A stretch of 64,000 nt of DNA, taken from Vicinamibacterales bacterium. Its GTDB lineage: Bacteria > Acidobacteriota > Vicinamibacteria > Vicinamibacterales > UBA2999. This document shows positions 7,740 to 23,468 of this stretch, piece by piece. The DNA is taken from positions 62,001-126,000 of the forward strand of contig JAUXWO010000036.1 in assembly GCA_030680175.1 (NCBI GenBank). The letters are read 5' to 3'. Position numbers and translations under genes: made by a program. Under the pieces are notes generated by a model, which did not search any database, had not been told where the DNA came from, and worked only from the letters and a program-made list of their open reading frames with translations. Numbering within the stretch: the stretch's first letter is position 1; every line of letters begins with the position of its first letter.

Positions 7740-8582
7740 ATGCCGCTTCATTCATACGCAAGACGCCTCGCCGCTGGTCTCACCCTGACAATGGCGCTCG
7801 CGAGCGGCGATGCGCTCGGCGGCCTCACGGCCTTCGACCACGGGTATGCGGCGTTCGGCCGTGTGCTCGCCGCGGCCGTGCGGGGCGATCGCGTCGATTA
7901 TCGGAACCTGGCGGCCAACCGTGCGGACCTCGACACCGCCGTCGCCGCGTTCGACGCTCCGGCGACACACGCCCTCGAGACGTGGACCCGGCCGCAGCAG
8001 CTGGCATTCTGGATCAACGCCTACAACGCCTTCACTCTGCAGGCCATCGTCGGCCACTATCCCATTCAGCGCCGGCGCTTCAGTCTGCACCCCGCGAGCA
8101 GCATCCGCCAGATCCCGGGCGTCTGGGATCGCCTCACCTGGCGGGCCGCGGGGCGCACGGTCACGCTCGACGAGATCGAACATGCGATCATCCGGCCGGG
8201 GTTCGACGAGCCGCTCATCCACTTCGCCGTCAACTGCGCCTCCGTCAGCTGCCCGCCGCTGGCCGCGGAACCGTACCGCGCCGCGACGCTGGAGGCGCAG
8301 CTCGAAGCCGCGGCGGAGCGCTACCTCGCGAGCCCGCACGGCCTGCAGCGGGTCGGACGGCTGTGGCGCGTGTCGAGCCTCTTCAAGTGGTACGGCGACG
8401 ACTTCGTCGACCGCTTTGCGCAGGACGATGCGCGCGCGCGATCGGCCAGGGACGGGGCCATCCAGAGCGTCATCGAGACCTACGGGCCGCCGGACATCCG
8501 GACCGTCGTGAACGGCCGCATCCGTATCGCCTTCATCGCGTATGACTGGTCGCTCAACGACATCGAGGAGACCCACCGATGA
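7740..8582 (+). CDS. Exported DUF547 protein
   Basis: 280 residues with an N-terminal hydrophobic segment (RRLAAGLTLTMALA), then a full DUF547 domain: YRNLAANRADLD, QQLAFWINAYNAFTLQAI, HPASSIRQIPGVWD, IHFAVNCASVSCPPLAAEPY and LFKWYGDDF. The Asn-Cys-SCPPL segment is the conserved core; the biochemical function of this family is not established, though it recurs beside redox and selenium proteins. The ATG at 7740 is chosen because the signal sequence begins there. The stop overlaps the start of the DUF3179 selenoprotein as ATGA, so the two are translationally coupled. A second DUF547 domain in this window is fused to a TVP38 protein (59838-61463). Confidence 0.85.
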   Translation: MPLHSYARRLAAGLTLTMALASGDALGGLTAFDHGYAAFGRVLAAAVRGDRVDYRNLAANRADLDTAVAAFDAPATHALETWTRPQQLAFWINAYNAFTLQAIVGHYPIQRRRFSLHPASSIRQIPGVWDRLTWRAAGRTVTLDEIEHAIIRPGFDEPLIHFAVNCASVSCPPLAAEPYRAATLEAQLEAAAERYLASPHGLQRVGRLWRVSSLFKWYGDDFVDRFAQDDARARSARDGAIQSVIETYGPPDIRTVVNGRIRIAFIAYDWSLNDIEETHR

Positions 8583-9619
8583 TCAAGAGGATCGCCCGAG
8601 CCGCAGCGGTCGTATTCGTCGCGCTGGCTGGACTCGGCGCGGCGCAGCGCTGGGTCGAGCAGGTCACCATTGACGGCGACCCGGTGCTGCGTGGCCTGCC
8701 GAAGGACGCAATCCCGGCCATCGACCGGCCACGGTTCGTCCCGGCCACCCAGGCCACGTTCGTCGCCGACGAGGAACCGGTGATCGGCCTCGTGGCCGGC
8801 GACGACGCGCGGGCGTACCCCACCTGGCTGCTGAACGCCCACGAGATCGTCAACGACCACATGGGAGGCCGCGCCATTGCGGTCACCTGGTGACCGCTCT
8901 GCTATACGGGCATCGTGTATGCCCGCACGGTCGACGGTGAAGAGCTCAGCTTCGGCGTCTCGGGCATGCTCTGGCGCGACAACCTCGTGATGTACGACCG
9001 GCAGTCCGAGTCCTGGTGGGCCCAGGGATCCGGCCAGGCCATCCGGGGCCCCCGCCGCGGCACACAACTCGAGCAGGTCGCCTCGGACATGATGACCTGG
9101 AAGGAATGGCGCACACTGCACCCGCGCACGCGTGTGTTGGCGCCCGAGGTGACGCGCGACCGCACCGGCCGCGACGTCTACGCTTCGTACCACCGCAGCC
9201 GCAGCATCGGCGTCACGGGCCGGACGCGCAGCGCCGGCGCGCTCGACGCCAAGGCCCAGGTGCTCGGATTCCGCATCGGGCGCGACAGCTTCGCGGTGGA
9301 GACCGGGCGCCTGGCCCGCGATCCCGTGATGCAGGCGGAGGCCGGTGACACGCCGGTGGTCGTCGTGGCGTCACCGGACCGCTCCTCGGCGCGGGCCTTT
9401 GTCGCCGCCGGCCACACCTTCCGTGACGTGCGCGAGGAGGCGGGGCGTGTGCGCATGACGGACGAGAAGACCGGGTCGCACTGGGACGCGTTTGCGGGTC
9501 GGGCGGTCTCTGGCCCGCTGGCCGGACAGCAGCTCGAATCCGTCGTCGCGCATCTGTCCTACTGGTTCTCGTGGCACTCGTTCTTCCCGGAGAGCGTGGT
9601 GCTCACGCCCTCCAGGTAG
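8579..9619 (+). CDS. DUF3179 selenoprotein (in-frame TGA read as Sec)
   Basis: The frame from ATG 8579 runs to 9619 with one in-frame TGA at 8891-8893 (residue 105). The translation reads AIAVTW-U-PLCYTGIVYAR; DUF3179 proteins normally have VTWCPLC here, so selenocysteine replaces the first Cys of the CxxC. The sequence after the TGA is a normal full-length DUF3179 domain (FGVSGMLWRDNLVMYDR, SWWAQGSGQAIRGP), which argues against a decayed gene. A hairpin fitting a bacterial SECIS element starts 14 bases after the TGA. A signal-like helix (AAAVVFVALAGLGA) suggests an envelope location. The product is 346 residues. Function of DUF3179 is unknown; a U-x-x-C pair implies thiol/selenol redox chemistry. 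It overlaps the DUF547 gene by ATGA. Confidence 0.88.
8891..8932 (+). promoter_or_regulatory. Putative bacterial SECIS element of the DUF3179 gene
   Basis: After the TGA come 14 bases, then GGGCAT (8908-8913), loop CGTGT (8914-8918) and ATGCCC (8919-8924): a perfect 6-bp stem with a 5-base loop. An outer 5-bp stem GACCG (8892-8896) / CGGTC (8928-8932) encloses it. Position and shape fit the SelB-binding hairpins that follow Sec codons in bacteria. The second selenoprotein gene of the window has the same spacing and nearly the same loop. Confidence 0.8.
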
Positions 9620-16848: not shown

Positions 16849-16953
16849 TGAGCAGATAGGAAGCGCCCCCGGGTCGGGCCGGCCGAGACGCGCGCGGCCC
16901 GCCGGGTCGTGGGCGCGCGCGCTGGCCGAAGTGCCGCGCAAAGGACGTGCCCC

Positions 16954-17214
16954 ATGGTTCGCCAGCTCCGATCCGACGCCACCGTGTCCCATGCCATCTT
17001 CCGCCTGCTGACGGAATTCGAGGAAACGCCCGGCCTCCGCCTCACGACGTGGCAGGCCTCACGCCTGTTCCGGCTCGATCCGGCGGTGTGCCGGAGCCTG
17101 CTCGACGCGCTCGTGGAGATGAAGGTTCTGCGCATCGAACCTGGGGGCCACTACACCGGCGTGAAGCGCGCGGCCACTCCACAGCGCCGCTCCGGCCAGC
17201 GTTCGTGTGCATGA
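16954..17214 (+). CDS. Small winged-helix-like protein
   Basis: 86 residues from ATG 16954, preceded by AAAGGACG. The sequence (SHAIFRLLTEFEETPGL, LTTWQASRLFRLDPAVCRSL, LLDALVEMKVLRIEPGGHY) has the length and spacing of a single winged-helix domain: a helix, a turn at WQASRLFRLD and a beta hairpin after EMKVLRIE. It could bind DNA, or be an interaction domain. The stop overlaps the start of the VWA gene (ATGA), so both proteins are made together. No named family recognised. Confidence 0.6.
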   Translation: MVRQLRSDATVSHAIFRLLTEFEETPGLRLTTWQASRLFRLDPAVCRSLLDALVEMKVLRIEPGGHYTGVKRAATPQRRSGQRSCA

Positions 17215-18218
17215 GCCGGCCGTCGTGGATGGCCGCGGCCGCGGCCCTGCTGGCGTGTGTCAGCGTGGGCACGGCGCAGCCGCAGTTCAGGAGCGAGGTG
17301 GATCTCGTGCTGCTCACTGTCACCGTCACCGATCGCGAGGGCCGGCCGGTCGTGGGGCTGGGCCCCGGCGACTTCGACGTCTTCGAGGATGCACAGCGAC
17401 AATCCGTGGCCCTCGTGGCCGTCGACACCGTGCCGCTCGATGTCATGCTCCTCATCGACGCCAGCGGCAGCATGAAGGACCGGCTGCCGGTGGTCCGTCA
17501 GGCCACGCAGCGGGTCGTCAGCATGCTGCGTCCCGGCGACCGGGCGTCGGTCGCCGGCTTCACGCACATCGTTCGCGTGCTCACCGAGTTCACCGACGAT
17601 CGGCGCGCCCTCGGCGCCGCGCTCGAAGCGTTGGCGCCCCACGGCCGCACGGCGCTGTACGACGCGCTGTACGTCGTGCTGAAGGGGTGGCGCCTGCCCG
17701 CGCCACGCGCGCAGGTCCGCCGCCGCGCACTGGTGGTGCTCACGGATGGGGATGACACGACCAGCCTGAACACCCACGACGAGATCATGGACCTCGCGCG
17801 CGGCATCGATGTGGCCGTCTACGCCGTGTCCCTGCCGCCGCACGAGCCGCCGCTCGATGGCCGGCCCGGCGCCAGGCCGGTCCTTCCCCCAACGCTCCGC
17901 CAGGCCGACTTCGAACTGAATGCGCTGACCAGGGAAACCGGGGGGCGCGCGTATCGCGCCGTGAGCTCGCGAGAGCTGACGGACCTCTACGATCACATCG
18001 TGCGGGATCTCTCCCACCAGTACACCCTCGGGTACGTCTCGACCGACACGCGCCGGGATGGCCGCTTCCGGGGTCTCACGGTGCGCATCCCGTCCAATCC
18101 GGGGGCCGTCATCCGCACTCGCGCCGGTTACTACGCTCCCGGGGGCCGTCCTGCCGGCGTCAGCACGCCGGCGCACAGGCCGGCGGCAGTAACGGCCGCC
18201 GGCGCGCGGGCGCGGTAG
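17211..18218 (+). CDS. VWFA-type exported protein (Acidobacteria-type)
   Basis: 335 residues. Signal peptide MAAAAALLACVSVGTAQPQ. Then a short Ig-like lead-in (VLLTVTVTDREGRPVVGL, GDFDVFEDAQRQSVA) and a VWA domain with an intact MIDAS: DVMLLIDASGSMKDRL, then a conserved Thr in HGRTALYDALY and VVLTDGDDTTS. The end GYVSTDTRRDGRFRGLTVRI plus TRAGYY is the hallmark of the VWFA-related domain very abundant in Acidobacteriota (TIGR03436 type). It probably mediates protein interactions in the periplasm. Coupled by ATGA to the small winged-helix gene. Confidence 0.85.
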   Translation: MSRPSWMAAAAALLACVSVGTAQPQFRSEVDLVLLTVTVTDREGRPVVGLGPGDFDVFEDAQRQSVALVAVDTVPLDVMLLIDASGSMKDRLPVVRQATQRVVSMLRPGDRASVAGFTHIVRVLTEFTDDRRALGAALEALAPHGRTALYDALYVVLKGWRLPAPRAQVRRRALVVLTDGDDTTSLNTHDEIMDLARGIDVAVYAVSLPPHEPPLDGRPGARPVLPPTLRQADFELNALTRETGGRAYRAVSSRELTDLYDHIVRDLSHQYTLGYVSTDTRRDGRFRGLTVRIPSNPGAVIRTRAGYYAPGGRPAGVSTPAHRPAAVTAAGARAR

Positions 18219-18436: not shown

Positions 18437-19546
18437 TCAGTGCGCCACGAGCGCCAGGGTCCAGGACAGGGGCATCGAGACCGGGTTGAAGCAGATCTTG
18501 TCGTCGCACGCCTGGTACTCGAGCGTGCCCGTCAACGTCAGCGTCTTTGACGTACGCAGCGCCCGCTCCGCCTCGCCGGTCACCTCGAGGACGACTTCCT
18601 GCAGCAACGTGAACGGCGTCTGGTACACCGGCACGTGCTCGTCGAGCGGCTCAAAATGATAGATCTCCGACGGGGGGAACTGCATGGGCAGCAGCCGCAC
18701 GAACGGCTGCGGGTCGATCCGCAGCGAGACGATGCGGTACCCCTCGGCACCTGGCGCGTAGATGTGAATGCCCTTTCGCGGGACGATCCGCGCCGCGACG
18801 GCGAACCGCGTCCCCGGCGACACCGTCGCATCGCTCGGATACGCCGTGACTTCGAGATGATCGCCGGAGACGCGGGTGGCCGCGACCGGCGGGGTGCCGC
18901 CCCCGAGCTCCAGCAGAATACTGGAGGCCGTCCGTCGCTCGCGGTAGTACTCCTCGAAGAAGCGAGCCGTGACGCGTCCTCCGCGGTCGACCACGAACGT
19001 GCCCGGATACGGCGTCCCCCGGGTCTGCTCGGCGACGCGTCGCGATCCGTTGCTCGCCACATACTTCTGCACGTCCGCCTGCAGCGCGGCGCCCTGGCTG
19101 TCGGACGCGAGCAGCTCATCGGCCACGGTGTTGAGGATGCCGTACGCGGTGATCGTCGCCGACCCGGCATCAGACAGCAGGGGAAACGTGAGGCCGTGAC
19201 GCTGGCTGAACGCCGCGAGCAGATCCGTCGCGTCGTAACTGATGGCGGCCAAGCCCAGTCCCTGCGCCTCGAGCTGATCCTTCTGATCTTGCAGCTGCAC
19301 GAGCTGCGTTCGGCAGTACGGTCACCAGTCGACCGACCGGTAGAACACGATCATGGCGCCCTTCGGCCCCATGATCGACTGCAGCGTCCGCAGCCGGCCC
19401 GACTGGTCCCGCAGCGTGAAGTCCGGTACGCGCTCGCCGACCTGCGGGCCAAGCCGATCCACGTCGACCGGCACCCGCGGGGACTGCCCCGACAGCGGCA
19501 CGACCAGCAGCGCCAGCATCGACCATAGGCTCGCCATTGCTCTCAT
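18437..19546 (-). CDS. Redoxin (AhpC/TSA) selenoprotein with DsbD-alpha-like C-terminal domain
   Basis: 369 codons from ATG 19546 (AGGAG seven bases upstream) to 18437, with one in-frame TGA at 19324-19322 (residue 75). The reading is FYRSVDW-U-PYCRTQLVQLQ, where thioredoxin-fold peroxiredoxins have DWCPYC; Sec replaces the first Cys. Domains: signal peptide (SLWSMLALLVVPLSG), redoxin domain (GERVPDFTLRDQSGRL, HGLTFPLLSD, RGTPYPGTFVVDRGGRV) and a C-terminal beta-sandwich like the DsbD alpha domain, keeping two Cys in YQACDDKICFNP. That pairing suggests an exported selenol/thiol reductase or peroxidase able to pass electrons internally. A SECIS-like hairpin follows the TGA at the same distance as in the DUF3179 gene. 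Confidence 0.88.
19291..19324 (-). promoter_or_regulatory. Putative bacterial SECIS element of the redoxin gene
   Basis: After the TGA come 14 bases, then GCAGCT (19307-19302), loop CGTGC (19301-19297) and AGCTGC (19296-19291): a perfect 6-bp stem with a 5-base loop. Distance and loop (CGTGY) equal those of the DUF3179 gene, although the stem bases differ, which is what selection on structure would give. Confidence 0.8.
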
Positions 19547-19617: not shown

Positions 19618-20220
19618 TCATCGCCCACGCACCTGCACGCGGTTGACGACGCCCAGCACGCCCGACAGGTTCCGCACCTGGACTTCGGCAATCTGGCGGT
19701 CCTGCGCGGCGTTGACGGTGCCAAGCATCTGGATGCGCCCGCCCGACACCACGAGGTGCAGGGCATGCGGTCCCTGGAACTGCGTCGACGAATCGACCCC
19801 GAAGGTCCTCGCGGTCTGCAGTTCCCGAAGGCTCATGGAACTGCTGAGGCCGCCGCCGGGGGCGTACATCGCCAGCGCCGAGTGTCCGTAAACGGCGATG
19901 TAGGCGCGAATGCGCAGGTCGTCGTCGCTGCGATGCGTGGGAAGGGCCACGATGTTGTTCGTGACCTCGTCGACCCCGGCCGTCTTTCGAGCCAGCGCCT
20001 CGGCCCGCTCCCGGAGGCCTAGCCTGACCGCGTACCCTTCCAGTGTGACCGTCCCGCGGTCGTAGGTGCCGTCGATCCAGTCGAAGGCCGTGAACTGGTC
20101 GAGCCGGTAGAGGCCGCCGAGCACCTCGGCCAGGACGTCGCGGGTGTGCTGCGCCTGGACAGGGAGCAGGCCAAGCGTCAGAGCAACAATGATGGTGGCC
20201 GCCGCGACTCGTGGGCTCAT
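19618..20220 (-). CDS. Exported double-BON-domain protein
   Basis: 200 residues with a signal peptide (ATIIVALTLGLLPVQAQ). Two BON domains follow: the first around GTVTLEGYAVRLGLRERAE and GVDEVTNNIVALP, the second ending GGRIQMLGTVNAAQDRQIAE and LSGVLGVVNRVQV. BON domains bind phospholipid and are common in periplasmic stress proteins of the OsmY type. Ribosome binding site GGAGAG just upstream of the ATG. Encoded 71 bases upstream of the redoxin selenoprotein, so both may belong to one envelope-stress transcript. Confidence 0.8.
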   Translation of the reverse strand: MSPRVAAATIIVALTLGLLPVQAQHTRDVLAEVLGGLYRLDQFTAFDWIDGTYDRGTVTLEGYAVRLGLRERAEALARKTAGVDEVTNNIVALPTHRSDDDLRIRAYIAVYGHSALAMYAPGGGLSSSMSLRELQTARTFGVDSSTQFQGPHALHLVVSGGRIQMLGTVNAAQDRQIAEVQVRNLSGVLGVVNRVQVRGR

Positions 20221-20353: not shown

Positions 20354-20764
20354 TCAGTGCGCGTGCAGCGCCGCGATCAGCGGGCACGTCACCGTGCCCC
20401 GGCTTGCGTCACAGCGCTCGACCAGTTCCGCCAGCACCGACTCCATCCGCCGCAGGTCATCGAGCTTCGCGCGCACATCGTCCAGCTTCTGCTCGGCGAG
20501 CGTCCGCGCCTCGGCGCAGTGCCGGCCGTCCTCCAAGGTCAACAGGCCGCCGATCTCCTCGAGGCTGAACCCGAGGCGCTGGGCGGACTTGATGAACCTG
20601 ACCCGAGCGACGTCCGCCTCGCCGTACCGGCGGATGGTGCCGTACGCCCGCCCCGGTTCGGGCAGCAGCCCCTTGCGCTGGTAGAAGCGAATCGTTTCGA
20701 CGTTGACGCCGGCCGCGGCGCCAAACGCACCAATCGACAGGCCGCGAGCAGTTGCCAGCATCAC
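20354..20764 (-). CDS. merR: Mercury-responsive regulator MerR
   Basis: 136 residues. HTH region [20 protein letters not shown] followed by YQRKGLLP, then a long dimerisation helix. The three mercury-binding Cys of MerR are present at 83 (GRHCAEA), 118 (VERCDAS) and 127 (TVTCPLI), matching 82, 117 and 126 of the transposon proteins. It should repress and, with Hg(II), activate the divergent merTPFA genes by twisting the long-spacer promoter between them. It is divergent from merT with 43 bases between, and shares that operator. Confidence 0.92.
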
Positions 20765-20807: not shown

Positions 20808-21203
20808 ATGCAGACCCGCACAACCCCGATGCGCCTGCCGGAACAGGCGCCCGCGGTCCCCCCCGTCGCCGGACGAGGCGCGTTGTACGCCGGCGGTCTC
20901 GCGGCCATCCTGGCGTCGGCGTGCTGCCTCGGTCCCCTGGTACTCCTGATGCTGGGCGTCAGCGGGGCCTGGATCGGCAACCTCACCGCGCTCGAGCCGT
21001 ATCGCCCGTTCTTCATCGGCGTCGCCGTGATCGCCCTCGCATTCGCCTACCGGCAGGTGTTTCGCCCCGCCGCCGCGTGCGCGCCCGGCGACGTGTGCGC
21101 CGTGCCGCAGGTGCGCACCACCTACAAGGCGCTCTTCGGCCTGGTCGCGGGGCTCATTCTCATCGCCATCAGCTACCCGTACATTGCCCCGCTGTTCTAT
21201 TGA
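20808..21203 (+). CDS. merT: Mercuric transport protein MerT
   Basis: 131 residues, three helices. The first holds the cysteine pair that accepts Hg(II) from MerP (AAILASACCLGPLVLLML); the loop after helix two has the second pair (RPAAACAPGDVCAVPQ). An end of YPYIAPLFY is typical. N-terminus slightly longer than the transposon version. First gene of the mer transcript; spacing to merP is 45 bases. Imports Hg(II) to the cytoplasm for reduction by MerA. Confidence 0.9.
   Translation: MQTRTTPMRLPEQAPAVPPVAGRGALYAGGLAAILASACCLGPLVLLMLGVSGAWIGNLTALEPYRPFFIGVAVIALAFAYRQVFRPAAACAPGDVCAVPQVRTTYKALFGLVAGLILIAISYPYIAPLFY

Positions 21204-21527: not shown

Positions 21528-23468
<1,941 letters not shown>

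Follow-up and report, generated by a model that had tools for sequence, protein, structure and literature searches.

In this work, a selenoprotein gene was identified on the minus strand of the window, that is, the whole stretch of 64,000 nucleotides of Vicinamibacterales DNA that was analysed. The gene (18437..19546, 369 aa, stop TGA at 18439-18437) encodes a redoxin of the peroxiredoxin (Prx) fold joined to a DsbD-alpha-like domain, and comparison with its relatives makes it near certain that the UGA at codon 75 is decoded as selenocysteine (Sec). The coding frame 19546-18440 (-) is open throughout when the in-frame TGA at 19322..19324 (-) is read as U75. This gives SVDW-U-PYC within a region that Pfam assigns to AhpC-TSA, as a sequence-only reading of the same DNA had proposed. 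The assignment is carried by this frame, by conservation across the TGA, by the exchange of Sec and Cys, by linkage to SelB and by a covarying hairpin, all of which were observed. In the available excerpts of PMC2398784, Cys members far outnumber Sec members in most families. In the redoxin-DsbD-alpha homologs, unlike most selenoprotein families, Sec is the rule.

Homologs were collected from 100 genomes of the same order and from a scan of genome contigs, which gave 56 loci in records named Acidobacteria, Gemmatimonadetes, Gammaproteobacteria, Pseudomonadales, SAR86 and Pseudohongiella. Among the 106 distinct homologs covering the site, the aligned codon is TGA in 102, TGC in three and TGT in one; two redoxin-only relatives in the host genome, where the site codes for Ser and Thr (L004, L005), were excluded from this set. 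A search for Cys homologs had been suggested earlier as a check, and it returned a Cys codon in 4 of the 106, a count in which distant Cys relatives may be under-represented because it begins with a Sec query and sequence similarity. The homolog sequence and its conservation continue past the TGA, which disposes of the earlier concern that all homologs might end there. Of 297 genomes drawn from across the phylum, 38 had a match at E <= 1e-60, and among the 53 matches listed, TGA was present in 47 and no stop in six. In a set of 20 homologs taken from this draw outside the order, the site codon was TGA in 18 and TGC in two. The 98-row alignment omits eight of the 106 homologs, which lacked a stop within the locus or a usable start or contained X, and the tree, from which two members shorter than 300 aa were dropped, has 96 rows. 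It requires three changes for its three Cys rows: L008 and L010 are nested in Sec clades (SH-aLRT 99 and 93), while L023 is placed without resolution; the Cys homolog L063 is absent from the tree. One genome (G018) holds a Sec copy, a Cys copy and SelB together.

The second earlier concern, a genome without selB, also falls away, since selB was found in the host genome. Its product passes the cut-off (321.1 bits together with its in-frame neighbours). The genome also has selA (517 bits) and selD (273 bits) as well as a tRNA-Sec whose anticodon loop contains TCA (64.8 bits, cut-off 47), so that selA, selB, selC and selD are all present. SelD itself makes up the C-terminal portion of a protein of 737 aa (L152, 1399-3612 (-)) that also has a CMGC motif and an oxidoreductase-like N-terminal part, and which resembles the CxxC-bearing Ndh-SelD fusions of the excerpts of PMC2398784. 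Within the order, 47 genomes carry a TGA copy, and SelB exceeded the cut-off in 42 of them; it did so in none of the three genomes with only a Cys copy. Outside the order it did so in 20/20 TGA genomes and 0/2 Cys genomes, the Cys codons being confirmed. Combined, this amounts to 62 of 67 TGA-copy against 0 of 5 Cys-only genomes (Fisher p 1.8e-5, kinship ignored). In one TGA-copy genome, SelB is divided over two adjacent frames (G065:C90:12378-14331), owing to either an assembly error or decay, and in four others no SelB above the cut-off was found: G034 (97% complete), G088 (93%), G099 (85%) and G069 (61%). For 50 genomes of the order neither a Sec nor a Cys copy is listed, and 33 of them have SelB, which is therefore independent of the selenoprotein gene. 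It is exceedingly improbable that translation simply stops at this TGA or that the TGA is a sequencing error, with the sequence beyond it forming an independent or decayed frame. A GTG frame (18437-19300) does exist downstream of the TGA, and chance hairpins of this size are common in the window, but a codon that is TGA in 102/106 homologs, swapped for Cys codons only and linked to SelB, refutes such a reading.

A bSECIS is a hairpin that follows the UGA directly and has a G near the start of its loop, and the redoxin gene shows both features. At 19291..19307 (-), 14 nt after the TGA (+15..+31), a 6-bp stem GCAGCT/AGCTGC carries the 5-nt loop CGTGC. A further selenoprotein gene of the window, for a DUF3179 protein with TWUPLC (8579-9619 (+), TGA 8891-8893; frame from 8546, first ATG 8579; PF11376, 292.6 bits), has the loop CGTGT. 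The two hairpins had been described as identical in architecture. Their likeness holds for the loop position and for CGTGY, but the DUF3179 stem reads either as 7 bp at 13 nt or as 6 bp at 14 nt. The earlier argument that two such hairpins in one window make misreading improbable is weak proof alone, since 25 sites passed when the window was scanned for hairpins of >= 6 bp that follow an open-frame TGA, and ten mononucleotide shuffles gave 2-9. The scan used self-set criteria and its remaining 23 sites were counted as a set; it was rejected as stand-alone evidence. Folding energies gave no signal for the hairpins, with z-scores of -0.07 (ordinary) for the redoxin gene and -1.59 for the DUF3179 gene. 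Rfam returned no match at the gathering score in the whole window, and a lax Rfam search near the gene gave three chance-like matches. Because hairpins are common by chance and the folding energy is ordinary, the two-hairpin argument needed a comparison of relatives.

All six pairs of the redoxin stem are intact in 117 of 119 Sec genes (101, plus 18 from outside the order; L098, with an N, was left out of the stem counts), as against one of six Cys genes (L008). The pair-breaking Sec genes are L094, at the outer pair, and L177. Compensatory change was observed at two stem pairs: +15/+31 is G-C in 112, C-G in 4 and U-A in 2 of the 119 Sec genes, and at +18/+28, 106 have G-C and 13 have A-U. This second pair sits on synonymous Gln81/Leu85 codons, which occur as CAG+CTG in 90 and as CAA+TTG in 11, with no mixed combination among 101. 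When synonymous codons were randomised according to each gene's own usage, 16.4 complete stems were expected, and 100 of 101 were seen. Thus, the hairpin exceeds chance, because the relatives keep the TGA codon together with the paired stem.

The product begins with a hydrophobic N-terminus, a probable signal peptide (residues 1-21, 19484..19546 (-)), according to a crude hydropathy score that 86 of 98 members pass and 12 fail. Export to the periplasm is most likely. The AhpC-TSA/redoxin domain follows at residues 36-194 (18965..19441 (-), Pfam 95.2 bits) with the redox motif U75-P-Y-C78 (19313..19324 (-)), in which C/U75 and C78 are present in 98/98 aligned members. The DsbD-alpha/ScsB-alpha-like C-terminal domain, assigned by Pfam DsbD_N and by fold, covers residues 216-369 (18440..18901 (-)) and contains a second redox pair, the CX4C motif C347-DDKI-C352 (18491..18508 (-)), with C347 in 96/98 and C352 in 97/98 members. 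Columns 75, 78, 347 and 352 are the only conserved Cys/Sec columns among the 98 members, and both redox pairs are kept in members down to about 28-35% identity with the window protein. Among 66 members, AhpC-TSA was recognised in 66/66 and DsbD-alpha in 62/66 at E <= 0.001.

An AlphaFold2 model of the whole protein (66 members) had a mean pLDDT of 93.6 and a pTM of 0.88. The modelled N-terminal domain matched AhpE (Z 17.7, rmsd 2.0, 149 residues, 34% identity) and BcpB (Z 17.8), so that the AhpC/TSA fold named by the sequence-only reading is indeed predicted to be peroxiredoxin-like. The PxxxTxxC signature of that fold is not kept, however: in the sequence alignment with AhpE, R70 aligns with Pro, U75 with Thr and C78 with Cys. 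Since C78, and not U75, falls on the Prx Cys, the redox centre is, on this alignment, a pair of the CxxC type in which Sec takes the N-terminal, attacking place, and it does not correspond to a canonical peroxidatic Sec. This bears on the possibility of a periplasmic selenoperoxidase, in which peroxide would oxidise U75, C78 would resolve it and the alpha domain would recycle the pair. The Prx fold, AhpE as a top match and AhpC-TSA in every one of the 66 members agree with such an enzyme, but with the signature lost, the peroxidatic Cys aligned with C78 and Thr aligned with U75, we regard it as unlikely.

The C-terminal domain was modelled alone because the Prx domain filled the whole-model comparison, in which DsbD-alpha was not listed. 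This model (pLDDT 94.2) best matched the N-terminal periplasmic domain of ScsB (Z 12.8, rmsd 2.3, 124 residues), followed by DsbD-alpha of Neisseria and E. coli (Z 10.5-11.2), and all ten Foldseek matches at E <= 0.001 were DsbD-alpha or ScsB. Pfam DsbD_N (PF11412) covers residues 242-355 with 30.2 bits, above its cut-off of 25. A profile search from sequence alone also placed DsbD-alpha first, weakly (E 0.74-0.94), with YQaCddk-vCynPe aligned with YQGCADAGFCYPPE. The DsbD-alpha-like tail with CDDKIC recognised earlier is thus borne out by Pfam, by the weak profile match, by the predicted fold and by the conservation of CDDKIC. On the predicted models we regard both folds as assigned. The protein has the fold and the conserved Cys pair of DsbD-alpha and contains no DsbD_TM, so that it is not a whole DsbD, in which the alpha domain is followed by membrane and gamma domains. 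Matches to the DsbD-alpha-like domain alone, within frames some 149-240 aa long, are spread over many genomes of the order, as if the relay domain existed in free form too.

Over the reverse flow and over a strict peroxidase, we somewhat favour the hypothesis of a periplasmic thiol-disulfide reductase that includes its own relay domain: the alpha domain would pass electrons to the Sec redoxin, and the redoxin would pass them to the substrate. SelB, Sec-tRNA(UCA) and the hairpin right after the codon would lead to decoding of UGA 75 as Sec. In the exported Prx-fold domain, the U75 selenol would attack its oxidised substrate, either a disulfide or perhaps a peroxide, and a U75-C78 selenenylsulfide would result. 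This bond would be reduced by C347/C352 of the tethered DsbD-alpha-like domain, and the two pairs could thereby form an internal electron relay within one molecule. Finally, C347/C352 would be re-reduced by a membrane thiol conduit. The host genome contains one DsbD_TM protein, which is CcdA-like (252-residue frame, 53 bits), and a DsbD_TM search of this genome found no full DsbD or ScsB. A CcdA-type protein is the natural candidate donor because it is the sole DsbD_TM protein of the genome.

The electrons could also run in the opposite direction, from the CcdA-type protein to the UxxC redoxin, then to the DsbD-alpha domain and to outside clients. In DsbD, the gamma domain reduces the alpha domain, and alpha is the domain that meets clients. 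Among the structures matched by the C-terminal domain is 1jzd, a DsbC-DsbD-alpha complex, and both points, together with the CcdA-like protein in the genome, would suit this opposite flow. It would, however, place Sec at an internal transfer site, where the gain is less clear. Moreover, in Caulobacter a redoxin is the end point of the electrons: according to the part of PMC5403849 that cites Cho et al. 2012, the envelope peroxiredoxin PprX is reduced by TlpA, which is itself reduced by ScsB. The opposite flow is thus rather doubtful in our view. For the favoured flow towards the Sec redoxin, the ScsB-TlpA-PprX chain would, by analogy, be the closest working precedent. A selenol redoxin fused to DsbD-alpha would be a compact system in which to ask why Sec persists in an oxidising compartment, and the fusion also bears on the supply of reducing power in bacteria without a full DsbD.

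The neighbourhood of the gene was also compared between loci. A BON-domain protein (19618-20220 (-)) ends 71 nt before the selenoprotein start and is perhaps co-transcribed with it; this neighbour was not found at other loci. A promoter scan around the gene gave no promoter-like site, and a terminator-like site lies just 3' of it at 18432-18416 (2 in the scanned stretch vs 0.8 by chance). A VWA-domain protein (16947-18218 (+)) is convergent with it. No conserved neighbour naming a donor or a client was recognised: the non-antisense clusters span <= 7 of 34 loci, and, leaving aside the gene's own cluster, the largest ones appear to be frames antisense to the gene. A mercury gene group lies beside the gene, with MerR (20354-20764 (-)), MerT (20808-21203 (+)) and a MerA-like HMA+Pyr_redox protein (21714-23468 (+)), and MerR is also near the closest homolog (L006/L093, one contig). 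The protein might handle mercury or other metals in connection with these genes, its selenol and thiols binding Hg(II). This is very unlikely, however, because five further loci in three genomes (L019, L021, L022, L122, L124) give just an adjoining pyridine nucleotide-disulfide oxidoreductase, 34-36% identical to the MerA-like protein, MerT had 0 matches in the 85 loci searched, and no neighbour is conserved overall. The mercury link was set aside as weak after this comparison. The same 149-kb contig also carries SelD and both DUF3179 genes, the second being a paralog that lacks an in-frame TGA and lies shortly beyond the window (L150, G000:C94:59838-60749). Moreover, a second Sec redoxin-DsbD_N paralog, 47% identical and with the TGA conserved (L002/L003, G000:C94:43823-44773), lies on this contig 17 kb outside the window.

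Taken further, these data would fit an undescribed, Sec-dominant and self-contained family of periplasmic reductases in Acidobacteriota, Gemmatimonadota and Gammaproteobacteria, and we put this forward tentatively, as a possibility. In such a family, selenol redoxin and DsbD-alpha relay would be united in one soluble protein fed by a CcdA-type protein, replacing the DsbD/ScsB-TlpA-PprX chain, with Sec ancestral and Cys forms arising upon loss of SelB. The searched literature on selenoproteins with DsbD or from Acidobacteria, Acidobacteriota or Vicinamibacter, as far as its accessible text goes, contained no report of a redoxin-DsbD-alpha fusion. No NCBIfam model exceeded its cut-off for the protein, the best match being the SelL-related redox protein NF040769 (54.5 bits, cut-off 120), and automatic annotation likely truncates such genes at the TGA because no model accepts them. 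For Acidobacteria, the excerpt of PMC1794560 gives four selenoproteins in three families. Selenoproteins of the UxxC Prx-like thiol:disulfide oxidoreductase/Redoxin family are known (PMC13188914, Table 1), and the selenoprotein lists in the available parts of PMC13188914 and PMC9312934 include DUF3179 UxxC/T and TsoB (rhodanese/DsbD). Prx-like fusions appear in the GOS paper, whose Prx-like 3/Unknown_3 has three conserved Cys with CxxC (PMC2398784, in excerpt). With these entries (PMC13188914; Prx-like 1 and 3 in PMC2398784) the window protein has the AhpC-TSA/redoxin fold and UxxC in common. Compared by the descriptions in those excerpts, the entries name one domain, whereas the window protein adds a conserved DsbD-alpha tail with CX4C; the Redoxin-family entry in the tabulated part of PMC13188914, a family for which the reviews list HEU0032618.1 and MBA3499694.1, may nevertheless be the same protein. 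UxxC Prx-like selenoproteins are known, and what appears new is the domain architecture and the dominance of Sec. TsoB, as listed in Table 1 of PMC13188914, likewise has a DsbD-like part in a selenoprotein, but it differs in its rhodanese, its UxxxxU motif and its two Sec, with no redoxin domain named there. AhpE/Bcp peroxiredoxins share the fold of the N-terminal domain, with PxxxTxxC in place of UxxC. The ScsB N-terminal domain and DsbD-alpha share with the C-terminal domain the fold and the paired Cys in YQxC..C..P, whereas E. coli DsbD has CX5C and the window protein CX4C, in a domain that is fused to a redoxin and has no membrane domain.
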